Positions 13,698 to 34,776 of a stretch of 64,000 bases of DNA are shown one piece after another. The translations under genes and the position numbers were made by a program. A model generated the notes under the pieces. It was not told where the DNA came from. It was given only the letters and a program-made list of their open reading frames with translations, and ran no database searches. How positions within the stretch are numbered: the stretch's first letter is position 1; every line of letters starts with the position of its first letter. Origin of the DNA: Candidatus Amulumruptor caecigallinarius (lineage in GTDB: Bacteria > Bacteroidota > Bacteroidia > Bacteroidales > Muribaculaceae); assembly GCA_944321825.1 (NCBI GenBank), contig CALUMU010000004.1, positions 124,001 to 188,000 of the forward strand, given 5' to 3'.

Positions 13698-13728
13698 GAA
13701 CTGATTTGCAATAAGTTTAAATCAGTTC
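13698..13728 (+). promoter_or_regulatory. inverted repeat upstream of susC, candidate operator
   Basis: Perfect 10-bp arms GAACTGATTT and AAATCAGTTC separated by 11 nt, ending 19 bp before the susC ATG. The place is suitable for control of the fructan operon by the hybrid regulator at 22742 or for attenuation. No TAnnTTTG box was found in the susC upstream region, as expected for an activator-dependent promoter. Function is inferred. Confidence 0.45.
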
Positions 13729-13747
13729 ATAAACACAAATCAATATC

Positions 13748-22741: not shown

Positions 22742-25546
22742 TTACAGTTTTGAGGTTCGCCGCTGGGATTCAGAGGGCGATTCACCGAAATATTTCTTAT
22801 AGCACTTGGTGAAATAGGAATGTGATGTAAATCCCACAGCATAACTCACATCATTGACTGTGTCCTCGGTAGTTTTCAGCAGCGTGGCGGCTTTTTTCAG
22901 ACGTATGATACGCAGCAAGTCGGTAGGGGAGTAGTTCGTCAGGGATTTCAGCTTACGATATAGCTGGACACGGCTTACTCCCATCTCCTGGCCGATTTCG
23001 TCGATGTTAAGATCCGGATTTGACAGCTTGCGGTTGACAATCTCTACAAATCTGCTGAAAAACTTGCTGTCGATATCCTTAAAGTCTGTGCCGTGGGTCA
23101 GAGAATCTGAGGGTGTGGTGCTGTTGCGTACAGATACTGACATCTCGGTTTTGTTCGTGGCATAAAGGCGCTTCCTGTTCTCTATGAGAGAGTCTATACG
23201 GGCTAATAACACTGCTGAACTGAACGGTTTGGCCAGATAAGCGTCTGCTCCGCAATTATATCCGGCTACCCGCTGCTCATCCATGGCACATGCGGTCAGC
23301 ATCAACACCGGGATGTGTGAAGTCGTGATTTCCGACTTTAATCTCCGGCATGTTTCGAGTCCGTCTATCCCTGGCATCATCACGTCGCAGATAATCAGAT
23401 CCGGGACATACTTGGTGGCTAACTTTATACCCGTGGCCCCATTTGACGCTTGGATGACAGTGAATCTGTCAGATGTCAACGCTTTTATCAATGTGCATAT
23501 GTCGGCATTGTCGTCGATTATAAGGATGGTGCTGTCGGTTGTTGATGGAAGCTGAGGAGTGTCATCGATGTCGGCAAGTTCGGATGTGACATCCGCTTCA
23601 GGCAATGGGAGATGTGCGCTCGGCCGTTCCGTTTCCGTTATATGCCTTATAGGAATCTGCACTGTAAACGTTGCGCCTTTGCCTTCTTCGCTCTGTACAA
23701 ATATCGTTCCGCCATGCAGTTCGACGAAGGCTTTCGACAAGGCGAGTCCTATGCCTGAGCCTTGGGGATTGACCTTTTCGCTCTTGAAAAAACGCTCAAA
23801 GATCCGATGTATATCGTCCTTGTTTATGCCTTTGCCGTTGTCTGACACTGTCAGGTACACATTTGACTCGTCTTTATCGAGGGTGACAGATACAGTCCCG
23901 TTTGCAGGTGTGAATTTGAAAGCATTTGACAGCAGATTGAAAAGCACACGCTCTATCTTCTCCACATCGACGGCTATGTTGTATTCCGCTGCGGTAGAGG
24001 GAATGTCGACTTTGAATTTCAAGTGCCGTTTTATAGCCACTTCGTTAAAAGCTTCGGTCCAGTCTCTGATTTCGGAGGCGATGTTGACCTCGGAGAGGTT
24101 GATGTTGAGCCGGTCGGTCTCGTATTTCCTGAAGTCAAGAATCTGGTTGATCAGTCTCATCAGAATCTTGACATTTTTTTGTGCCAGTTTCATCAGTTTT
24201 GTCTGGGCTGGACTGAGATTGTCGGCAGATACCAATTGCTCTACAGGTTCGGCTATCAGTGTCAGCGGTGTCCGCAGGTCATGTGACACATTTGTGAAGA
24301 AAGTGAGCTTGGACTGCGTCGCTTGCTTGAGTCTGGTCAATATGTCGTTTATTTCATCGTGTTGCTTCTTTAGCTGCCGGTTTTGGCACTCGATTTTGTC
24401 GCGTTGCCTTAGCAGCTGCTGGTTCTGACGCTCTATGGCTTCCCTGTGCTGTTTGCCTGTCCAGAAACTGCGCAGGAGCAGAAATATGATTATAAACGAC
24501 AGGAACAGGATTATTACAACCCCTAAAAGGATTTGCTTTTGTGATGAATGTTGCTTCTGAAACAGCTCCAGCCTGTTTTTCAGTGACTCGATATTGTCGG
24601 TTTCTACTTTTAATGCTTCATATTGACGCAGCAATATCTCCGCATTTGACAGATCCACGGCTGTCCCTGTCGGTAGATAGATATCCTGCTGGTGCCTTGC
24701 ACGGTCGCCTTCAAGTACAGAGATTGCCGTATGGATGAGTTTACGCCCCTCGGTCGGATACATGAAAGTGGCATCTATTATGGAGTCTGCTACAGCCTGT
24801 ATGCCGATTGATGGCGATGCGTCGATGCCTATGATTTTGATGTCGTCGCGTCCGGCTTTACGTGTAGCATTTGCAGCACCTATGGCGAGCCTGTCATTAT
24901 GGGCATATATGACCGAAGTCTGTGGATAGATACGAAGTAATGAGTCGACTTGCCTTTCGGCTCCGTCAGCCGACCAGTCATGTACCATGCCGCTGGCCAA
25001 TAACCGCAACGGCGCGTGGGTCTCTACGTATTTATAGAATCCATTATGCCTTTCGGCTGCAGGGGATGTCTCCAAGTTTCCTTGTATTTCCAGAATCTTT
25101 GCCTCTTTGTCGATGGAGTTGACATACTCTGCCGCAGCGATGCCTATCTGGTAGTTGTCGGGACCCCAATACACGGTATAGTTGTCGCTGTCGACCCGGC
25201 GGTCGAATATGATGATAGGAATGTCGGCCTTATAGATGCTGTCGATGATCGGTGTAAGCGCTTCGGACTCGTTTGGTGCTGCGATTATAATGTCAAACTT
25301 GTTATGGGCGAAATAGCGCAGGTCGTCGATTTGCTTTTCGTTGCTGTCGTCGGCCGAGCGGATTTCGACATAGATGTCGTTGCGCAGCAGCGTTTCACGC
25401 ATGATTTCTTCGTTCATTTTGGCGCGCCAGTCATCCTGTGAGCACTGCGATACGCCGATGCGGTATTTCGGTTCGCTTTTACATCCTGTGACCAATGTCA
25501 AGGAAAGCAAAAGCAGCGATGGCAATAGATTCAGGGTTTTTTTCAT
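22742..25546 (-). CDS. hybrid two-component system sensor/regulator with periplasmic sugar-binding domain (fructan HTCS)
   Basis: 934 aa one-protein signalling system. Signal-anchor with VTGC at residues 19-22, then a type I periplasmic binding protein fold (about 28-310; PNESEALTPIID, IIIFDRRVDSDNY, YAHNDRLAIGAA). A membrane segment (about 338-360) and coiled coil precede the HisKA domain (SHDLRTPLTLI, H422), HATPase (NLLSNAFKFT, DNGKGI, GSGIGLAL), receiver (CDVMMPG, phospho-acceptor D721) and AraC-type HTH (about 830-934). HTCS with a sugar-binding-protein sensor, rather than the commoner propeller sensor, are known from the Bacteroides fructan locus, where fructose is the ligand. Its position beside GH32 and DUF4960 genes fits. 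It should activate the susC operon. Confidence 0.93.
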   Translation of the reverse strand: MKKTLNLLPSLLLLSLTLVTGCKSEPKYRIGVSQCSQDDWRAKMNEEIMRETLLRNDIYVEIRSADDSNEKQIDDLRYFAHNKFDIIIAAPNESEALTPIIDSIYKADIPIIIFDRRVDSDNYTVYWGPDNYQIGIAAAEYVNSIDKEAKILEIQGNLETSPAAERHNGFYKYVETHAPLRLLASGMVHDWSADGAERQVDSLLRIYPQTSVIYAHNDRLAIGAANATRKAGRDDIKIIGIDASPSIGIQAVADSIIDATFMYPTEGRKLIHTAISVLEGDRARHQQDIYLPTGTAVDLSNAEILLRQYEALKVETDNIESLKNRLELFQKQHSSQKQILLGVVIILFLSFIIIFLLLRSFWTGKQHREAIERQNQQLLRQRDKIECQNRQLKKQHDEINDILTRLKQATQSKLTFFTNVSHDLRTPLTLIAEPVEQLVSADNLSPAQTKLMKLAQKNVKILMRLINQILDFRKYETDRLNINLSEVNIASEIRDWTEAFNEVAIKRHLKFKVDIPSTAAEYNIAVDVEKIERVLFNLLSNAFKFTPANGTVSVTLDKDESNVYLTVSDNGKGINKDDIHRIFERFFKSEKVNPQGSGIGLALSKAFVELHGGTIFVQSEEGKGATFTVQIPIRHITETERPSAHLPLPEADVTSELADIDDTPQLPSTTDSTILIIDDNADICTLIKALTSDRFTVIQASNGATGIKLATKYVPDLIICDVMMPGIDGLETCRRLKSEITTSHIPVLMLTACAMDEQRVAGYNCGADAYLAKPFSSAVLLARIDSLIENRKRLYATNKTEMSVSVRNSTTPSDSLTHGTDFKDIDSKFFSRFVEIVNRKLSNPDLNIDEIGQEMGVSRVQLYRKLKSLTNYSPTDLLRIIRLKKAATLLKTTEDTVNDVSYAVGFTSHSYFTKCYKKYFGESPSESQRRTSKL

Positions 25547-25551
25547 GTCAC

Positions 25552-25559
25552 AAAGTTAC
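25552..25559 (-). promoter_or_regulatory. HTCS promoter -7 box, near-leaderless
   Basis: TAACTTTG on the minus strand ends only five bases before the HTCS ATG (25546), so the transcript would start at or next to the start codon. Confidence 0.5.
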
Positions 25560-25646
25560 TGAAAAATTATTCACGTAACGCCATGACACATATTTCCCTA
25601 TCATTGCAGGCTTACTATTACTTATGTAGCAAAAAATTATCATTTC

Positions 25647-25703
25647 TGAAATATTAATACAATATTTTGGAAATAATTATGAAATATCAGGGTGGTAGCT
25701 TTG
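25647..25703 (+). promoter_or_regulatory. conserved 41-bp element plus TAnnTTTG box, copy 1
   Basis: A 41-bp AT-rich block (25647-25687), with three direct repeats of the form GAAATA(T/A)T and a central CAATATTTTG, is 39/41 identical to the block at 49445-49485. Exactly 8 bp later comes a -7-like box TAGCTTTG (25696-25703), as in the other copy. No TTTG -33 box is present, so an activator site is likely. It drives the small ORF at 25743. Confidence 0.65.
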
Positions 25704-25742
25704 TAGTAGAGAAAATTACAACGTTACTAAAGATACTGCCGT

Positions 25743-25907
25743 ATGCTGCTACTGATATTGGCTTTCGCGTTCCTGTACCTGCTTGTGCTGGCATGGCTGT
25801 GGGCCTCTGACATGATGAGGTCGACAACTTCCATCAACAAGGGAGCGGCTGACCGTCGGCGACACCATGGGCCGCTGTCGCTGTCACCCCCATGGGGTTT
25901 CCGCTGA
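25743..25907 (+). CDS. small single-span membrane protein of a duplicated family, copy 1
   Basis: 54 aa. The first 21 residues (MLLLILAFAFLYLLVLAWLWA) form one hydrophobic helix, followed by SDMMRSTTSI, a basic stretch (DRRRHH) and the ending SPPWGFR. The DNA from TTCCTGTACC through GAGGTCGAC is nearly identical to the reading frame at 49398-49171, and the upstream element is shared too. The gene lies divergently from the fructan HTCS. I do not recognise the family. Possibilities are a small membrane regulator, a hydrophobic toxin-like peptide, or a transcript whose DNA or RNA structure matters more than the peptide. Confidence 0.55.
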   Translation: MLLLILAFAFLYLLVLAWLWASDMMRSTTSINKGAADRRRHHGPLSLSPPWGFR

Positions 25908-26020
25908 CAGCATCATCGGCAGCTGGTATGCCAAAAGCCTGACAGCCTCTTGACCTTAACCCAACACGGTTTTCAAAACACGGTTTGCGCTGCTGACCGC
26001 ATGTTGCTGGTGTGCATGGG

Positions 26021-27103
26021 TTACGTATTTCGGGCGGTGAGTTCGGCCATTGCCGGGATGAGGTTGCGGCGTATGGCATCGTTGGTGAGCCTGTGGCCGC
26101 AGGTTATGTTCTCGTATGCATCGCCAAAAAAGCGGATGTATTCGTCCTGGCAGTTGATGACATTGTCCTCGGTGCCGAAGATGGCGAAAGTCTCGCCGGT
26201 GTCCCTTTCGCTGAAAGATGCTAACTGCTGGCGTTCTAACCGTTGATAAGAGTCGCAGAGACTCTCGGTCACTTCAAATTCTGTGGCACCGTCAGCCCTT
26301 TTCTTGAAGAAGGGGACGACTCCGATTTTCTTGCGCATCGACTCCGACACATGGAACGACGGATTGACCAATATCTTCGGGACTCCGTCCAGTAGATTGG
26401 CAAACATTCCGCCCATTGATGTCCCCACTACTATGTCGACGCTTTCCTTGTCAATCAGTCCGCGCAGCATGTCGTATGCAGCAAAAGGGTCTATGGGTAA
26501 ATCCGGCGACAGGACTCGGCTTTCGGGTAGAAGACGCTGTATTTCGGCGGCGGTGCCGGAGTTGCCCGATGAGGCGAATCCATGGATGTAGAGGATGGTC
26601 TTCCCCACCAGCATGGATTTTGCAATGTCCTCATTTATGAGATCGACAGCGTCCAAGAGCGGTTTTATGTCAACGTCATCCGACTCGTCGGCTTGCTTGG
26701 CCAAAGACAATGCGATTTTGAACGCTTCCTGTAACCGCTCTGCGGTCATTATGGCGCGCCTGAGTTTGTAGAGCAAATCATTGCCAGCCCAGTAATCGAA
26801 GCACACTGTAGCTAAAACATCCATGTATGTTTCGCTTGCGTTGAAGTGGGTATGCAGGAAATGCGACTCGTTCATTAGATTGGCTGCCTCAAGGAGATAG
26901 AAATAATCTTCCTGGTCATCCTCGTGTACTGTCACATCGACATGTACACTCCGTGTCATCGGCAGTATCTCGATTATCGTATCGTTCTGGAGTATGATAG
27001 CCGTGCCTTGCGCATCGCGGACTGCATATCCCCATTCGCGCAGTGCATCGAGGACTGTTTCCCTGGCATTCATAGTGCCGCTGTGTCGGTTGTTGTCTAG
27101 CAT
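26021..27103 (-). CDS. YqiA/UPF0227-type alpha/beta-hydrolase with extra N-terminal domain
   Basis: 360 aa from the ATG at 27103; an ATG at 27073 (MNARETVLDAL) is an equally good start. The C-terminal half (about 167-360) is a compact esterase fold: ILYIHGFASSGNSGTA, nucleophile elbow GTSMGGMFA, FAIFGTEDNVI and a late His in CGHRLT. It matches YqiA/YcfP small esterases. The first ~165 residues form a separate domain (TIIEILPMTRSVHVDVTVHEDD, then a helical part) that I do not recognise; in style it recalls the YbjN/CesT chaperone-like fold. No operon partner is evident. The substrate is unknown. Confidence 0.72.
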   Translation of the reverse strand: MLDNNRHSGTMNARETVLDALREWGYAVRDAQGTAIILQNDTIIEILPMTRSVHVDVTVHEDDQEDYFYLLEAANLMNESHFLHTHFNASETYMDVLATVCFDYWAGNDLLYKLRRAIMTAERLQEAFKIALSLAKQADESDDVDIKPLLDAVDLINEDIAKSMLVGKTILYIHGFASSGNSGTAAEIQRLLPESRVLSPDLPIDPFAAYDMLRGLIDKESVDIVVGTSMGGMFANLLDGVPKILVNPSFHVSESMRKKIGVVPFFKKRADGATEFEVTESLCDSYQRLERQQLASFSERDTGETFAIFGTEDNVINCQDEYIRFFGDAYENITCGHRLTNDAIRRNLIPAMAELTARNT

Positions 27104-27277
27104 AACTTAATATAGGTATATAGTATCTGTGTCAGTTTGTTATTCGGGTTGTCAGCGGTTGCCTTTGGCGCGGTTGTGGTGCTTGCAGAGCATTCATTTC
27201 AATTTCATTAAATTGGATATAAAACTCTCGTCGTTTTTGGCGTTCTTAGCCCCTTGCAAGTTGGTATTTGCCATAGG

Positions 27278-28108
27278 TTACTTCTTTTTCTTAGAAAGGA
27301 TTTTCTTTTCTTCTGACTTAAGGCGACGTTCCACTTTCTTGACATCCTCAGCAGGGGGAAGAGCTTCAGGGATAATACCCCTATCAAGTAGCATACCTCT
27401 GACAGCGGAGTTATTGTCAATATGCTCTCGTTCAATACCAGTTTGGCCATGCAGGTCTTTTTGTTGAACGTTTACATATGTCATCTCAGCAGCGAGGTCT
27501 TTAGCTTTGATGGCGATAGTAGATAGAAAATCTGCTAACGGTCTTTTTTCTGGAGCACCGACACGACGCTTCATCATAGCTGTGTCAAGACCGAATAATG
27601 CACGGTCGCCTTTGGTTCGGATTATCGCGAATCCCTTTGAATCGACACCACGTTCATATAATACTCCTGACAATGTGTGTTCTGTTTCAGCAAGTTTGGC
27701 ACGCGCCTGGACGCGTTCATAGTCAAGAATGCGTTGATGTACAAGCTCGGCTCGGCGACTCTGTATGGCAAAATAGTTTTGGGCAAATGCAATTTCAGGT
27801 TTCCGTGGATCGCCATTTTGAGCAATCAGATAGCAAGCATAGCGTGTTAACATGACATCATCTATCTGACGTTCGGCTCCAGAACCGAGTGCGACCATTT
27901 TGCTGATGTCAGCAAAATGGTCTGAAACCGCTTCACCTGCGTTTCTGGCAGATTCCTTGGCCTTTTCAATGATGGATTGAAAGTTACGCCATTGAACATA
28001 TCCCATGACAGGAGCAAGCTTTCGTGCACTCCAACATTCCACGCCCTCATATTTGATGGCAATGGACTCGAATCTATGAAACAGTTCTTGTATCTCTTGT
28101 GCTTTCAT
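27278..28108 (-). CDS. dinD: DNA damage-inducible protein D (DinD)-like
   Basis: 276 aa from the ATG at 28108 (MKAQEIQELFHRFE); the frame extends upstream to 28147 but that would overlap the transporter gene. Family features are FESIAIKYEGVECWSARKLAPVMGY at the N-terminus (a Bro-N/ANT-like fold), the central DDVMLTRYACYLIAQNGDPRKPEIAFAQNYFA stretch, and RGMLLDRGIIPE before a Lys-rich C-terminus. In E. coli DinD is SOS-induced and inhibits RecA filaments. It lies 22 bp after the MFS gene, but its base composition looks more AT-rich than its neighbours, which suggests acquisition. No LexA site was sought successfully. Confidence 0.85.
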   Translation of the reverse strand: MKAQEIQELFHRFESIAIKYEGVECWSARKLAPVMGYVQWRNFQSIIEKAKESARNAGEAVSDHFADISKMVALGSGAERQIDDVMLTRYACYLIAQNGDPRKPEIAFAQNYFAIQSRRAELVHQRILDYERVQARAKLAETEHTLSGVLYERGVDSKGFAIIRTKGDRALFGLDTAMMKRRVGAPEKRPLADFLSTIAIKAKDLAAEMTYVNVQQKDLHGQTGIEREHIDNNSAVRGMLLDRGIIPEALPPAEDVKKVERRLKSEEKKILSKKKK

Positions 28109-28130
28109 ATATGTATCAGAGGCAGGGCGG

Positions 28131-29963
28131 TTATTCGAGGCCGTCAAGCTCTACGGCTTCGTCGGTGGAGGGCTGCTTGTTGGGGAGCTCGAGGCCGTAG
28201 TGGCGCTTGGCATCGAGGGCTTTGAGCCAGAGGCCGAACAGCAGGGCGAGGACTCCGAGCGATGCGAAGATGAGCATCGGGACGGTATAGTTGTAGCTCA
28301 GAGGGTTCATGACCCCGACATTGGTGGCTACGAGCACAGCTCCGATAAGCATCGGGAAGGAGTAGAGTCCGATATTCTGTATCCAGAAGATGACGGCGTA
28401 GGCCGAACCGAGCAGTTTGCCGTCGACGAGCTTCGGTACGGACGGCCACAACGATGCGGGTACTAACGAGAATGATATGCCGAGAAGGACGATGGCGATG
28501 AATGCGACCGTAAAGCCGAGCCAGCCGGTAGGTTCGTTGATGCTGTCGATGGTCAGGCGGAAATCTTCGTCAATCTTCATCGCCTGTGCGAAGTCGATCT
28601 GCGTTTCACGGTCGGAGAGAAACGAGATCAACGCTTCGGCTGATGCTTCGGGGTCGGCGGCTCCGGGCTGTTCAAACGCTTTGCGGGGATTGAACACGAG
28701 GGTTTCCCCGGTCTTTTTGCCGATAAACAGCTGCTTGACCTCGTCGTTGGCGAAATTGTCGATGCCGAACACTACATGCACTGCGGCATTAGGTGTGCCG
28801 TCGGAGGCTGGTCTGACACGCTCCACGTGGCCTGACACTATTGCTTCGGTGCCGTTGATGACTCCTGTTTCGGCTCCGCGCAGCAGCGGCAGGCCGAGGG
28901 CGAATGTCAGATGGCATACTATCATCAGCAACGCTCCGAAGATGAGCATGGTCGCCCCTTTGCCCTTGGTGTCAAGGTAGTTGCCGAGGAATGGGGTCAC
29001 GGCAGCAGCTCCGAGAGGGAATACTGAAAATATGAGTCCGGCGGTCTTTACGGATATGCCTAACTCGCACTGGAGCATATTGGCGGCGTATTTCTGGAAT
29101 GGGAAAATGGCTGAATAATACAGCACGCACAGGAGAGCGACAATCCAGAACACTCCGCTGGAAAAAATCTTGCCGAGGTCGCTGAAGCGGAACGGATCCT
29201 CTTTCTCTTCGGTATTGCCTATCTGGCTTTCAAGTTTCTTGTCCATGAATCCATAGACTATGAAGCAAATGAGGCCGATCAGCAGCAACAGCACAGCAAA
29301 TCCTACGGGACGTGTCACCGAGAGGTTGTCGCCAAGGGTTGCTATCCATGGCGACCCGATGAACACTGCAAACACGCCTACTCGGGCCAGAGCCATTTCC
29401 ACGCCCATTGCCAGAGCCATCTCCTTGCCGGCAAACCACTTGACTATACCGCGCGACACGGTGATGCCGGCCATCTCCACTCCGCAGCCGAATATCATAA
29501 AGCCGACAGCCGAGAATTTTGCCGAGGCAGGCATCCCTTTAAAAAACGGTGTCACATTCCACCATGCCGAGGGAAGGTTGAGGTTGGCATCAAACCATGC
29601 TGCCAGCGAGCTTGACGTGAAAGCGTCGGTCAGAGCATAATAGTTTATGGCCGCTCCGATGAGCATGACTGTGCCAGACAGGATGGCGGTGAAGCGTACT
29701 CCCATCTTGTCAAGAATGACTCCGGCAAAGATGAGAAAGAATATGAATACGTTGAGGAAAGTTTCCGATGAAGCGAAGTTGCCGTAGGTCGACGGGTCCC
29801 AGCCCTTGAGTATCTGGAGTGATGACTGGAGTGGGGACAGTATGTCCATGAAGATGTAGCTGAAGAACATCGCCGAGGCAAGCAGTGCCAGAGCGGTCCA
29901 TCGAGCCCATTTCTTGTCGCTCAACACCTGTGAGCTGACGGATGGGGTGGTTGTTGTAGCCAT
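28131..29963 (-). CDS. MFS transporter with a trigger-factor-like periplasmic insert
   Basis: 610 aa, far longer than the usual 400-450. About twelve membrane helices: nine before residue 360 and three after 480. The segment between them (about 362-480) is hydrophilic and reads SGHVERVR, VVFGIDNFANDEVKQLFIGK, GETLVFNPRKAFEQ, MKIDEDFRLTIDSI, closely resembling the PPIase (FKBP-like) part of Bacteroidales trigger factor. If the N-terminus is cytoplasmic, this loop between helices 9 and 10 is periplasmic. The membrane part resembles MFSD1-like carriers; the substrate is unknown. The stop lies 22 bp before dinD. Confidence 0.8.
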   Translation of the reverse strand: MATTTTPSVSSQVLSDKKWARWTALALLASAMFFSYIFMDILSPLQSSLQILKGWDPSTYGNFASSETFLNVFIFFLIFAGVILDKMGVRFTAILSGTVMLIGAAINYYALTDAFTSSSLAAWFDANLNLPSAWWNVTPFFKGMPASAKFSAVGFMIFGCGVEMAGITVSRGIVKWFAGKEMALAMGVEMALARVGVFAVFIGSPWIATLGDNLSVTRPVGFAVLLLLIGLICFIVYGFMDKKLESQIGNTEEKEDPFRFSDLGKIFSSGVFWIVALLCVLYYSAIFPFQKYAANMLQCELGISVKTAGLIFSVFPLGAAAVTPFLGNYLDTKGKGATMLIFGALLMIVCHLTFALGLPLLRGAETGVINGTEAIVSGHVERVRPASDGTPNAAVHVVFGIDNFANDEVKQLFIGKKTGETLVFNPRKAFEQPGAADPEASAEALISFLSDRETQIDFAQAMKIDEDFRLTIDSINEPTGWLGFTVAFIAIVLLGISFSLVPASLWPSVPKLVDGKLLGSAYAVIFWIQNIGLYSFPMLIGAVLVATNVGVMNPLSYNYTVPMLIFASLGVLALLFGLWLKALDAKRHYGLELPNKQPSTDEAVELDGLE

Positions 29964-30045
29964 TGTGTATAAGTATGATTGACTGGTTTGATAATTACGC
30001 TAAGTTTCAAAGAAACAAATTTAGCTTATTATTTTTTAACATGTA

Positions 30046-30178
30046 AGAGTGTGTTTACTTTTAACATTATAATTCGTTCGTCTGTGACCTATGACTCGAA
30101 ACCAGCCTCGCAATGTTAATTTGTGATAAGTTTAAATCAGTTCTATAAAAATTTTTAATGTTAAAGTAAACACACTCT
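30046..30178. repeat. 133-bp segment bounded by 22-bp inverted repeats (inverton- or MITE-like)
   Basis: Left arm 30046-30068 begins AGAGTGTGTTTACTTT; right arm 30157-30178 is its complement with one T fewer. The arms flank 88 bp between the divergent MFS and AI-2E-family genes. The interior contains an 18-bp stretch (30126-30143) identical to 13711-13728 upstream of susC. It could be an invertible regulatory segment, a miniature transposable element, or a large cruciform. No target duplication longer than one base is obvious. Confidence 0.6.
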
Positions 30179-30201
30179 AAAAAATCGGCTGGATTATTTT
30201 T

Positions 30202-30209
30202 CGTAATTT
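30202..30209 (+). promoter_or_regulatory. promoter -7 box of the AI-2E-family/mltG operon
   Basis: TAATTTTG matches TAnnTTTG and ends 34 bp before the ATG at 30244. It overlaps the zone of an upstream GTG, ruling that GTG out as the start. Confidence 0.55.
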
Positions 30210-30243
30210 TGTGTCATATACTGTTACGACAAGTCGCATCAAC

Positions 30244-31380
30244 ATGCCGAATACACATTCACGCCCCTACACGTTTGACCGAGTGGTAAGGATATTGTTT
30301 ACCATTGCCCTGCTGGCGGTGGCGATATATCTTATCAATTATCTTAAAGCAGTGCTGCTGCCGTTTGGCGTGGCATGTCTTATAGCTTATATATTGGAGC
30401 CGTTCGTGCAGTTCAACCGCCGCCTACTGCATCTGCGTGGGCGCATCATTGCGGTTTTTGTGACATTGTTTGAGTCTCTGTTTATCATCTCGATAGCGAG
30501 TGCTTTTGCTGTCCCGTATATAATCGCGGAGTTCAGGGAGATGGGTCATCTGCTGCAAGATTACGCCAGCAGCGAGCTCCACATACCCTATCTGCCGGAG
30601 GAGATACATTCGTTTATCCGCCGGAATATCGACCTTGACGGTCTTTCGCGTATGATAACTAAGGACGAGTGGATTACCATTATCGAAGGAACGTTCCGTA
30701 CGGCATGGGAGCTGATAACCAACAGCATCAGCTTCATGCTCGGTATTCTCAACTGGGTAATGGTGATTCTTTATGTCATATTCCTGATGATAGACTATGA
30801 CCGGCTGGAGCGGGGACTGCGTTGGGTGGTGCCTCCTAAATACCGCCGCCCGGTGTTCCATATCGCCAATGACATCAAGACGAGTATGAACCATTATTTC
30901 CGTGGACAGTCATTGATCGCTTTTATTGTAGGTGTGCTGTTCTGTATCGGGTTCACTATCGTAGGTGTGCCGTTGGCTATACCGTTGGGCCTTCTTATCG
31001 GCTTGATGAACATGGTGCCGTATCTCCAGCTCGCATCGTTTCCGCTGACGGCGTTCTTGTGCATGGTGGCTTCGGTAGGCGAGGGCGGCAATTTCTGGAC
31101 CATCTTCGGCGAGGCTTTTTTGGTGTACTGTGTCGTTCAGGTTATCCAGGACTTGTTCCTCACGCCTAAAATCATGGGTAAAGCCATGGGACTCAATCCG
31201 GCCATCATACTGTTCTCGCTGTCGGTGTGGGGGAGCCTTTTAGGAATCCTTGGCATGATTATAGCTCTGCCGCTGACTACATTGGTGATTGCATACTATA
31301 ACAAATACATCATATCACGCGGAAACATAGAGGCTGAGGCTTCTGCTGATAATAAGATAGAGGAAAGAAACGAATGTTGA
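30244..31380 (+). CDS. AI-2E family (PerM/YdiK-like) membrane permease
   Basis: 378 aa from the ATG at 30244 (MPNTHSRPYTFDRVV). Seven to eight hydrophobic segments with the family arrangement: two N-terminal helices, an amphipathic middle (about 80-140), DYDRLERGLRWVVPPKYR, GQSLIAFIVG, PLGLLIGLMNMVPYLQ, and the C-terminal IQDLFLTPKIMGKAMGLNPAIILFSL. Family members export various small molecules or ions; the AI-2 role is established for only a few, so no substrate is claimed. The stop overlaps the mltG ATG, so the two genes are translationally linked. Confidence 0.88.
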   Translation: MPNTHSRPYTFDRVVRILFTIALLAVAIYLINYLKAVLLPFGVACLIAYILEPFVQFNRRLLHLRGRIIAVFVTLFESLFIISIASAFAVPYIIAEFREMGHLLQDYASSELHIPYLPEEIHSFIRRNIDLDGLSRMITKDEWITIIEGTFRTAWELITNSISFMLGILNWVMVILYVIFLMIDYDRLERGLRWVVPPKYRRPVFHIANDIKTSMNHYFRGQSLIAFIVGVLFCIGFTIVGVPLAIPLGLLIGLMNMVPYLQLASFPLTAFLCMVASVGEGGNFWTIFGEAFLVYCVVQVIQDLFLTPKIMGKAMGLNPAIILFSLSVWGSLLGILGMIIALPLTTLVIAYYNKYIISRGNIEAEASADNKIEERNEC

Positions 31381-32510
31381 GAAAGCCTATGTCAGACAAT
31401 CAATCGAAGCCAGAACAACCTAAGGCAGCACAGCCGAAACGGCCTCGCAGACCATCTGCTCCACGTTCACGCCGGCAGTCCAAACAGTCCAAGGCTGTCA
31501 GTCGCGTCAATCCTGTCACATGGCTGTTTATAGGGTTAGGGGCGGTGGCTGTCGTGGTCGTGCTATGGCTTGTCGGGCTTGACGGCTACCGTGGCGACTC
31601 TGTGAGGGTGACTGTGCCACATGATGCCACTGCGTCGCAGGTGCGTGACAGCCTTGATGTGCGTCTCGGAAAGTCGATGGGCAAGCGGGTCTACACATTG
31701 TGGCGGCTTATGGGCGGCACCCCCTCTAAGGCTCATGGGAGCTACCTCGTCACACGTGGCGAGATGGCATTGAAGATAGCTCGTAACCTGTCGCGGGGAC
31801 GGCAGACTCCTGTCACGGTGACGTTTAACAATATCCGCACCATGCCTCAGCTCGCTGACAAGATGGCCTCCATGCTCGACTTCAGCAGCGAGGAATTTCT
31901 TGAAGCCTGCCGCACGGTACTCCCGCCGATGGGCTTCTCGGATGAGTCGCAGTATCCGGCGGCGTTTCTCCCTGACAGTTACGAGTTTTATTGGACCGCT
32001 TCGGCGGAGGATGTCGTGGCAAAACTTGCCGGCCACCGTAACCGTTTCTGGACCGACGAGCGGCGTGACCGCGCACGTGCACTCGGGCTCTCGCCTGTCG
32101 AAGTAGCCACTGTGGCATCGATAGCGGAGGAGGAGACGGCCAAGAAGGATGAGCGACCCATGGTGGCGCGGCTGTATCTCAACCGTATCGACCGAGGGAT
32201 GAAGCTCCAGGCTGACCCTACCGTCAAATATGCGATAGGGGACTTCTCTATACGTCGCATCACTAACTCCATGCTCTCGACCCCCTCACCTTATAATACC
32301 TATGTCATCAAGGGCCTGCCTCCCGGTCCTATCCGCATAGCAGATGCTGCGACAATCGACGGAGTGTTGAACGCACCTCGGCATGGCTACCTGTACATGT
32401 GTGCACGTGAGGATTTCTCAGGCTATCATAATTTCGCGTCAGATTATGCCGCTCACCGAGCCAATGCTGCCCGTTACCGCTCGGAACTTGACCGGCGCGG
32501 CATAAAATGA
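31374..32510 (+). CDS. mltG: endolytic murein transglycosylase MltG
   Basis: Cleaves nascent glycan strands in the inner-membrane-anchored peptidoglycan machinery and sets strand length. Basic, Pro-rich cytoplasmic tail, one membrane helix (about 49-69), LysM-like subdomain, then the YceG catalytic domain: PAAFLPDSYEFYW, ATVASIAEEETAKKDERPMVARLYLNRI (catalytic Glu in the EEE cluster), LQADPTVKYAIG and SPYNTYVIKGLPPGPI. 378 aa is typical. The ATG at 31374 overlaps the previous stop by 7 bp; an ATG at 31389 is an alternative. Confidence 0.95.
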   Translation: MLRKPMSDNQSKPEQPKAAQPKRPRRPSAPRSRRQSKQSKAVSRVNPVTWLFIGLGAVAVVVVLWLVGLDGYRGDSVRVTVPHDATASQVRDSLDVRLGKSMGKRVYTLWRLMGGTPSKAHGSYLVTRGEMALKIARNLSRGRQTPVTVTFNNIRTMPQLADKMASMLDFSSEEFLEACRTVLPPMGFSDESQYPAAFLPDSYEFYWTASAEDVVAKLAGHRNRFWTDERRDRARALGLSPVEVATVASIAEEETAKKDERPMVARLYLNRIDRGMKLQADPTVKYAIGDFSIRRITNSMLSTPSPYNTYVIKGLPPGPIRIADAATIDGVLNAPRHGYLYMCAREDFSGYHNFASDYAAHRANAARYRSELDRRGIK

Positions 32511-32532
32511 ACAATTTCTAAAAACTCAACAA

Positions 32533-34776
32533 ATGACGGCAGATGTTGTCAAAAAGGCATTGCAAGCCATTGCATCCGTGGTGGTGGCAGCATCCGCGTC
32601 ACCATTGGCAGGATGCCGCTTCGAAAAGCCAGCATCCCCGGCGGCATTGTATGAGTGTGAGAGCTATACGCTGTTTGCTGACAGCATCACCGACGGAATC
32701 CATGTAGGCTATGCCCCTGACGATACCACGTTGATAAGCACATTCCGCACAGCGACTGTGCCCGACACGTTGCATATACCGCAGCCCTCCATGTCGTTGC
32801 GTTACAGCAGCGATGCGCGTATGATTGATGCCGTCCATAACCTGTCTCTATGGGCGTTGGACAGTATTCCAGGCAATTTGTCTACGGCGGATATTTCCTA
32901 TCTGACCGATCTCGCGCTCTGTTACGTTGCCTCTGATAAGGCCAAGGAGCTATTAAGGTCCAAGGTGCGTGACGGTAGGGTAGTGCAGGGGCGGAGCTAT
33001 GGCGGTGGATTCCCTGTTGCTACTGATGCCGTGGCATGGATAGCGGCAGCGTGGAGCGTCTACGAAGTTACGGGTGATTATCGGTGGTTAGAAGAAATCT
33101 ACCCGGTGGCTCGTAAGACATTGGAAATCTATGAAACCGTTGTTGCCGACGCGTCGACAGGCTTGTTCAGGGGTATGCAGAGCGTGGCCGGGAATGCCAT
33201 ACATCCTTATCCGGCATGGATGACGCCAGTGGATATTTCGACCATTGAACCCATTACCGTCAACGCCTTGACTGCCCGCGCTTATGAAGCCGCTTCCATG
33301 ATGGCTATGGCTCTCGGGCATGACGGCACAGAGTACATGGCCAAGCGCAACCGCCTTGTCGAAGCAGTCAATACAACCTTGTGGGTGCCTGATGCGAGCA
33401 TGTACAGCATGTATCTCTATGGAGAGCCGTATCCGATTGCGGCCGGAGCTGTCGACAATCTCGGCCAAGGTCTTGCCATGGTCTATAATGTATCTACCCC
33501 GGAGATGTCAATAGCTGTGCAGTCGCATACACCGGTGCTGCCATTGGGTATCCCTGCCATGTATCCGCAGTTGTCGGACTCTGTGCCGGCAGTAATCGTG
33601 CCGGTTACGGAGGCTTATTGGGCCATTGCGGCATCACATTCTGGCAATACCGCTCTGTTGCAGCGCATGGTGGGTTCGTTGACGTACCTGTCGGCCATGA
33701 ATCTCGGCGTTTTCCCATATTATGACGCTTCGTCTGGCAAATGCCCGTCGGCTGTCAGGAATATGTCGGGCAGGAACCCTCTTGGAGCTGCCGCCAATAT
33801 CGCCGCCATCTATCGCGGCATGTTGGGGCTGCGCTTCACTCAGGGAGGTATAGAAATACACCCGAACATTCCGCCTACGGTCGATACCCGCCGCGAAGTG
33901 AGGAACTTGCGTTACCGCGACGGTCTGCTTCACATCCTCATCAACGGCTACGGTTCGGTAATCAGTTCGTACAAGATGGACGGAGCCGAACAGACAAGCC
34001 ACACCATCCCGTCGAACATCAAGGGGACGCACGTCATCGAGATTACTTTGGGGGGAAATACTCCGAAAGTATGTGAGATTAACGAAGCATCTGTTGCCGC
34101 GATGCCGGCGGTGCCGGTAGTTAATACAAGAAATGCGCGGCAGATACAGATAAAAAACTTCTCAGTCGGAGATGCTTATGAGGTGTATCTTAACGGTGTG
34201 CTTGATGAGCGGATTTTTGTTGATAAATACTATATCCACTCTGCTGAGGTCACGCAATTTACATCTGCGGCATTTGTCCCTGTCAGAGGATGGCAATATG
34301 CCGGGATGTCGTCACGTCCGATATATTTCTATCCACGCGAAAGCATCATGTCAGTGCCTGCCGACTCTTTAGCCTACACTGGCACATCGCTTATCAGCGA
34401 CAAGAAATTGGCTCGTCAGTTTGTCGAGACTACCGAGTCGTATCGTGGGAAGATGAGTTTCAACATCGTTGCGCCCGAGGCCGGAGAGTATCTGATGGAA
34501 GCTGTCTACAGCAATGCTCTTGCCGATGGAGAGGCGCGTTCGGGCTTGTGTGCCATCAGGCTTGTAAGCGTCAACGACTCCATATCAGGGGCATTGGTGA
34601 TGCCGCCGACTGTCAAAGATGAGTGGACGCTCACTTCGCGCAGCAACATGCTGCGCGTGAAGCTCCGTCAGGGTGTCAACCGTGTAAGCGTCATGTACAG
34701 GAAGCCGTACACGGTCAACAGCCATGTGACGCTCAACAATGTGCTTATCAAGACCGTGCGTTTCTACAAGTTATAG
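32533..34776 (+). CDS. six-hairpin glycosidase-like lipoprotein
   Basis: 747 aa. Lipobox PLAGC at residues 24-28, so probably envelope-anchored. Residues about 90-450 look like an (alpha/alpha)6 barrel of the six-hairpin glycosidase class: helix-rich, with GDYRWLEEIYPVARKTLEIYE, NLGQGLAMVY and NPLGAAANIAAIYRGMLGLRFTQGGIEIHPNIP, a segment typical of the barrel end in rhamnosidase- and phosphorylase-type enzymes. The remaining 300 residues are beta-rich accessory domains. Catalytic acids cannot be assigned by eye. It follows mltG by 22 bp, but no shared pathway is obvious. Confidence 0.65.
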   Translation: MTADVVKKALQAIASVVVAASASPLAGCRFEKPASPAALYECESYTLFADSITDGIHVGYAPDDTTLISTFRTATVPDTLHIPQPSMSLRYSSDARMIDAVHNLSLWALDSIPGNLSTADISYLTDLALCYVASDKAKELLRSKVRDGRVVQGRSYGGGFPVATDAVAWIAAAWSVYEVTGDYRWLEEIYPVARKTLEIYETVVADASTGLFRGMQSVAGNAIHPYPAWMTPVDISTIEPITVNALTARAYEAASMMAMALGHDGTEYMAKRNRLVEAVNTTLWVPDASMYSMYLYGEPYPIAAGAVDNLGQGLAMVYNVSTPEMSIAVQSHTPVLPLGIPAMYPQLSDSVPAVIVPVTEAYWAIAASHSGNTALLQRMVGSLTYLSAMNLGVFPYYDASSGKCPSAVRNMSGRNPLGAAANIAAIYRGMLGLRFTQGGIEIHPNIPPTVDTRREVRNLRYRDGLLHILINGYGSVISSYKMDGAEQTSHTIPSNIKGTHVIEITLGGNTPKVCEINEASVAAMPAVPVVNTRNARQIQIKNFSVGDAYEVYLNGVLDERIFVDKYYIHSAEVTQFTSAAFVPVRGWQYAGMSSRPIYFYPRESIMSVPADSLAYTGTSLISDKKLARQFVETTESYRGKMSFNIVAPEAGEYLMEAVYSNALADGEARSGLCAIRLVSVNDSISGALVMPPTVKDEWTLTSRSNMLRVKLRQGVNRVSVMYRKPYTVNSHVTLNNVLIKTVRFYKL

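Follow-up and report, generated by a model that had tools for sequence, protein, structure and literature searches.

REP sequences are dispersed palindromic repeats of intergenic DNA, and the elements considered here are likewise dispersed, palindromic and intergenic; they differ, however, in that their palindromic core measures ~100 nt and lies inside DDE-type ends with target duplications. Among the closest described systems are the miniature inverted-repeat elements (MITEs) of P. gingivalis, namely MITE239, MITE464/MITEPgRS and BrickBuilt, the ends of which, according to the excerpt of the source available, match those of IS5-family ISPg elements (PMC4596501). As described in that excerpt, they too are non-coding Bacteroidales elements with IS5-type ends, a likeness drawn from the description only (PMC4596501). 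Whereas BrickBuilt, in the same excerpted account, has a tandem-repeat minisatellite interior, the family presented here has a covarying hairpin core, which has been lost from the copy with which we began; reading the full interior of this copy by eye revealed no tandem repeat. The MITEs of prokaryotes have been reviewed, together with the stable stem-loop RNAs transcribed from them (PMC10969869, in excerpt), and a survey of candidate structured RNAs from the human microbiome lists, in its excerpted part, 250 palindromic candidates out of 3161, several of them in Bacteroidetes (PMC8040213). The latter are likened to the present core by that partial description, and the two sets may overlap. 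Finally, invertons are characterized, in the excerpted part of the relevant source, by inverted repeats of 10-40 nt (PMC11892184). A search of the open-access literature, with subscription papers and preprints outside its scope, returned no description of the present MITE family. The copy in question is an ordinary kind of element, and the MITE family behind it is undescribed as far as the literature was searched.

The locus lies in the window, that is, the whole 64-kb stretch of DNA analysed, and its inverted repeat is very probably the decayed remnant of a MITE rather than a genetic switch, having arisen by an insertion of the IS5-family type followed by loss of the interior. The sequence-only reading had placed an inverted repeat at 30046-30178, between divergent transporter genes, and it was right on both counts. 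An exact 16-bp arm, AGAGTGTGTTTACTTT, occupies 30046-30061 and recurs as an inverted copy at 30163-30178; if one 1-nt indel is allowed, the arms lengthen, imperfectly, to about 28 bp. No other exact 16-bp inverted pair less than 300 bp apart exists in the window, and dinucleotide shuffling produced any such pair in only one of 60 randomized versions of it. On one side of the repeat is an MFS transporter gene (PF07690; 28131-29963, minus strand), and on the other a gene for an AI-2E family transporter (PF01594), which runs on the plus strand from the ATG at 30244 to 31380 (its frame is open from 30211, and the domain scan took the protein from 30247). Downstream of the MFS gene lies a frame for a Bro-N domain protein (PF02498; 27278-28147, minus strand), which, as called, overlaps the MFS frame by 17 bases. 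Delimited as a transposon, the element spans 30047-30177 (131 bp), its boundaries being one base inside those given originally, with TAA as a 3-bp target duplication on the left (30044-30046) and on the right (30178-30180). Its left terminal inverted repeat, GAGTGTGTTTACTTTTAACATT..., covers 30047-30074 on the plus strand, and the right one, together with a subterminal A/T-rich piece, covers 30144-30177 on the minus strand. The element is free of coding sequence and has a G+C content of 31%, compared with 50% for the window. Just outside it, on either side, lie TANNTTTG-like motifs: TAAATTTG, a Bacteroidetes -7-like motif, at 30016-30023 (minus strand, MFS side) and TAATTTTG at 30205-30212 (plus strand, AI-2E side).

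Two readings of this repeat had been offered, a MITE and an invertible segment. The latter would mean an invertible promoter, in which a recombinase flips the 88-bp spacer and so switches one of the two transporter genes. The site is indeed a divergent promoter region with inverted repeats around a short spacer, the arm length falls in the range described for invertons in the excerpted source (PMC11892184), and the tyrosine recombinases of the genome (17 PF00589 matches on other contigs) could act from afar. Against this, the two arms are unequal by an indel, the element is bordered by the TAA duplication, its relatives are dispersed and have interiors that differ or are longer, and no PF00589 gene is present on its 212-kb contig. 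Nor does the intergenic region contain a match to the Bacteroidetes consensus promoter TTTG-N17-23-TANNTTTG; its single sigma-70-like match is weak, crosses the left arm and is at chance level (1.5 expected), although a degenerate promoter may be present. The claim that the vicinity is free of recombinases and transposases is borne out across the seven window proteins that were examined (22742-34776). Of the two readings, the MITE is the one with support, on the strength of its TNA duplication, its relatives and a full insertion sequence (IS) with matching ends; the inverton gained nothing from the recombinase, promoter and arm-symmetry tests and is highly improbable.

The relatives of the remnant begin within its own genome, where a BLAST search with the element gave 26 matches that resolve into two families. 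Family A, with ends GAGTGTGTTTGRATTTAACATT, is represented by L010 and L009 (275-278 bp, both with TTA duplications) and by a third copy, L036, of 280 bp, with the variant ends GAGCCTG/GAGTCTG and a TAA duplication. Family B, with ends GAACTGATTTAAACTTATT, counts about a dozen copies of ~190-200 bp. The window copy is a mosaic of both. Its left terminal repeat is identical in 25 of 28 positions to the right end of L010 in reverse complement, and within its A-type ends it carries 33 bases in common with the family A copies of 275-280 bp, from their right half (30074-30106, plus strand; 29/33 identical to L010), a complete family B end (30093-30146, minus strand; 50/54 identical to the B copy L012) and then the A right end. 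By alignment, about 190 bp of the family A interior, to the left of the 33-base piece, are missing from it, and no second copy with its exact interior was found among the dispersed relatives. The window also contains a family B remnant at 13704-13733, in which end pieces, GAACTGATTT...AAATCAGTTC, face each other with almost no interior between them. No empty site was seen in the genus comparison, which consisted of one other genome; there, the orthologous gene (66% identical) stands beside a different neighbouring gene.

Copies of the arm, for which the sequence-only reading had advised looking and whose absence was part of its stated refutation, exist both in this genome and in others, and further family genomes likewise contain dispersed relatives. 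The pattern GAGTGTGTTTRNNTTTAACA, with at most one mismatch, is found in 48 of 397 family genomes, compared with two single matches for the reversed pattern in the same 397, and the exact 22-bp arm forms part of a 162-bp MITE in the Muribaculaceae MAG record JAIDJJ010000015.1. In another genome of the family, 893 bp lie between arms of the window type, one of them with a substitution (locus L095), and include a 212-aa frame that reaches 161 bits with the NCBIfam model NF033580 (IS5 family transposase; cut-off 110) and also matches PF01609, PF13340 and PF13586; in the one copy read, this frame appears to be without an intact N-terminal part. The window element thus has its ends in common with an IS bearing a transposase. 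This IS5-family IS (NF033580, IS5_3 transposase) has the ends GAGTGTGTTTACTTTTAAC and, on its 893-bp copy, TNA flanks, as has the window element, which by contrast is 131 bp long and encodes nothing. Although the flanks of the IS itself, TTA and TAA, are not identical, identical 3-bp flanks border 19 of 25 elements with GAG-type ends (window copy and IS included), and TTA or TAA makes up 46 of their 50 flanks; 26 elements had been entered into this count, and L105, flanked by TAA and TAA, was dropped for having one end off the pattern. Plasmids searched with one 201-bp MITE, and phages searched with the IS as the query, gave no match. Several contigs of a further genome (L097-L100) break 81-145 bp inside one MITE, which we read as indicating that the MITE has spread to high copy number and leaves gaps in the assembly.

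How would the decayed MITE have come to its present state? Most likely, an IS5-family transposase acting in trans recognised the GAGTGTGTTTACTTTTAACATT ends of a longer ancestor, which would have entered the divergent promoter region at a TNA target, in this case TAA. The copy would then have shed the greater part of its interior, and with it the hairpin core that its relatives have, a deletion apparent from the alignment, and would have acquired the family B end probably by insertion or recombination, a presumed route to the observed mosaic. The element now looks immobile in its own genome because no PF01609 (DDE_Tnp_1) transposase, the one family searched for, was found there, the same search being positive in 9 of 14 control genomes. 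Any remaining role would at most be a passive one, as a hairpin or spacer that separates the two divergent promoters. An alternative origin, in which the ends were left by an IS after loss of its interior and do not descend from a 275-280-bp MITE, would agree with the identity between these ends and those of an IS and with the existence elsewhere of an arms-only element of 46 bp (L112); it is nonetheless scarcely credible, in that the interior fits the family A right half and the family B end to the extent given above. That a transcribed stem-loop or bidirectional terminator evolved in place and was never mobile is just as hard to believe, for although the strand forms a more stable fold than its shuffled versions do (z -5.67), most of that fold is made up of the terminal repeat, no terminator-like site was found, the ends recur in many genomes, and a terminator would be of no obvious use between divergent genes.

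Intact relatives of the MITE remnant contain a hairpin core of ~100 nt with covarying stems and strand-specific G.A mismatches. Twenty stretches chosen from the GAGTGTGTTTRNNTTTAACA matches, and one further locus, were examined for arms and core, and 11 MITE-sized two-armed elements were recognised (L096, L102-L106, L109, L111, L112, L114 and L115). Model R1 detected the core in all nine of these that measure at least 160 bp; the 117-bp element is without it, and the 46-bp element is too short to hold one. In alignment A1 (35 sequences), a 7-bp inner stem shows both-side changes in five of its seven pairs and is flanked by conserved GGA and GACYGA, and an outer stem, which was not a selection criterion, is present as well. 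The loci of A1 were hand-picked from 91 hairpins, the criteria being GA[CT][CT]GA and complete pairing of the inner stem, and gave 37 sequences, from which the family B copies L004 and L005 were left out; because A1 was selected on both features, the 98.8% pairing of the inner stem and the conservation of GA[CT][CT]GA are partly by construction. Free of this selection are the elements fetched by arms alone, L102, which lies outside the A1 filter and yet pairs, and a test of the outer arms. In the latter, arms paired with their own partners had a mean duplex energy of -24.7 kcal/mol, compared with -13.8 kcal/mol with exchanged partners (sd 0.74; lowest of 5000 permutations, -16.7 kcal/mol), and in 34 of 35 cases the own partner was better than the mean of the exchanged ones.

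The mismatches in these stems are far from symmetrical. They were counted in 57 non-redundant cores taken from 92 matches (identity <=90%, length >=85) by a fold-back alignment with equal scores for G.T and A.C, and amounted to 274 A.G/G.A versus 3 C.T/T.C and to 75 G.T versus 36 A.C, all counts being inflated by the inheritance of one mismatch among related cores. For the outer stem alone, the figures were 77 versus 0 and 30 versus 17 (binomial p 0.08 for the latter), with a rough split into zones, the fold-back alignment stopping before the inner loop in about half of the 57 cores. One defined strand of the core therefore appears to be the one that folds, because correction of a double-stranded quasi-palindrome would treat both strands equally and would be expected to erase mismatches over time. 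A hammerhead-like CTGATGA, seen in some cores, is absent from many others and was dropped as a candidate.

As to the distribution of the core, R1 identified at least 38 cores in the genome of the window copy at E<=0.01, with 150 of 578 candidates scored, and in the own-genome loci L116-L145 the cores mostly lie inside elements of 180-320 bp. In the window itself R1 found no core, its best match (E 0.31) being judged a chance one. At E<=1e-4, cores are present in at least 65 of 119 genomes of the family and in at least 6 of 198 genomes of the order, at least 4 of which belong to other Bacteroidales families; these counts are lower bounds, the filters having been stricter and few candidates having been scored per genome. 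Among the outer ends of 30 own-genome core loci, no fewer than seven types can be told apart, GAACTGATTTAAAC, GAGTGTGTTTG, GAGCTTGTTTAAAA, TAAGTAACT, TAAGTTAGTC, TAAGTAAGTC and TAAGTGAGTG, to which L036 adds GAGCCTGTC; they come from a simple ungapped scan, with L126 and L140 among the mis-called loci, and for the types other than GAG target duplications were seen in only some. In a one-contig genome of the family, a common arrangement is an element that holds a pair of opposed cores ~180 bp apart. Two opposite cores enclosed by a single pair of ends, at a spacing of ~100-350 bp, were also noted at L143 (1470-1792), at L048 (1485-1694) and among the matches in genomes G091 and G056.

What could such a core be doing? 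Rfam gave no match in the window at the gathering score, and at E<=1 it gave three matches in 18 loci, one to a tRNA next to an element and two to miRNA families with scores well short of the respective cut-offs. A cis-acting RNA on the sense strand was rejected, since tandem contexts were co-oriented in 46 and opposed in 39 instances among 130 loci (40 more were convergent or divergent, and 5 were set aside, two as spanning ORFs and three for want of a neighbour), where genes were taken as the longest ORFs instead of gene-finder calls and the test was blurred because many elements hold two opposite cores. In the own genome alone the contexts numbered 17 co-oriented versus 5 opposed, which had at first resembled a signal, and outside it 29 versus 34. 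Inspection by eye of the strands of the one-contig genome revealed no clear pattern of replication-strand bias of the core. We prefer to infer that the core serves the element itself, either through a cruciform or single-strand structure that would aid transposition or through binding of a host factor; the core may also act in trans as an RNA. It is possible, though we put it forward tentatively and would sooner bet against it than for it, that a large MITE superfamily of the Bacteroidales carries the ~100-nt cassette as its conserved passenger, which folds, with covarying stems round G.A-rich internal loops, either as RNA or in the single-stranded DNA of one defined strand, swaps transposase-specific ends and so rides many IS5-type transposases, and that the window copy has lost this passenger.

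For studies of gut bacteria, the remnant means that inverted-repeat scans can mistake such leftovers of MITEs for phase switches. The family matters more than the copy in the window, as it reaches tens of copies per genome and its hairpin stays structurally conserved while the ends change, and the superfamily defined by the hairpin core is what deserves further attention. Should the fold prove to be under selection, it would become possible to ask directly what a MITE interior is for, be it the binding of a host factor, assistance to transposition or a regulatory RNA.
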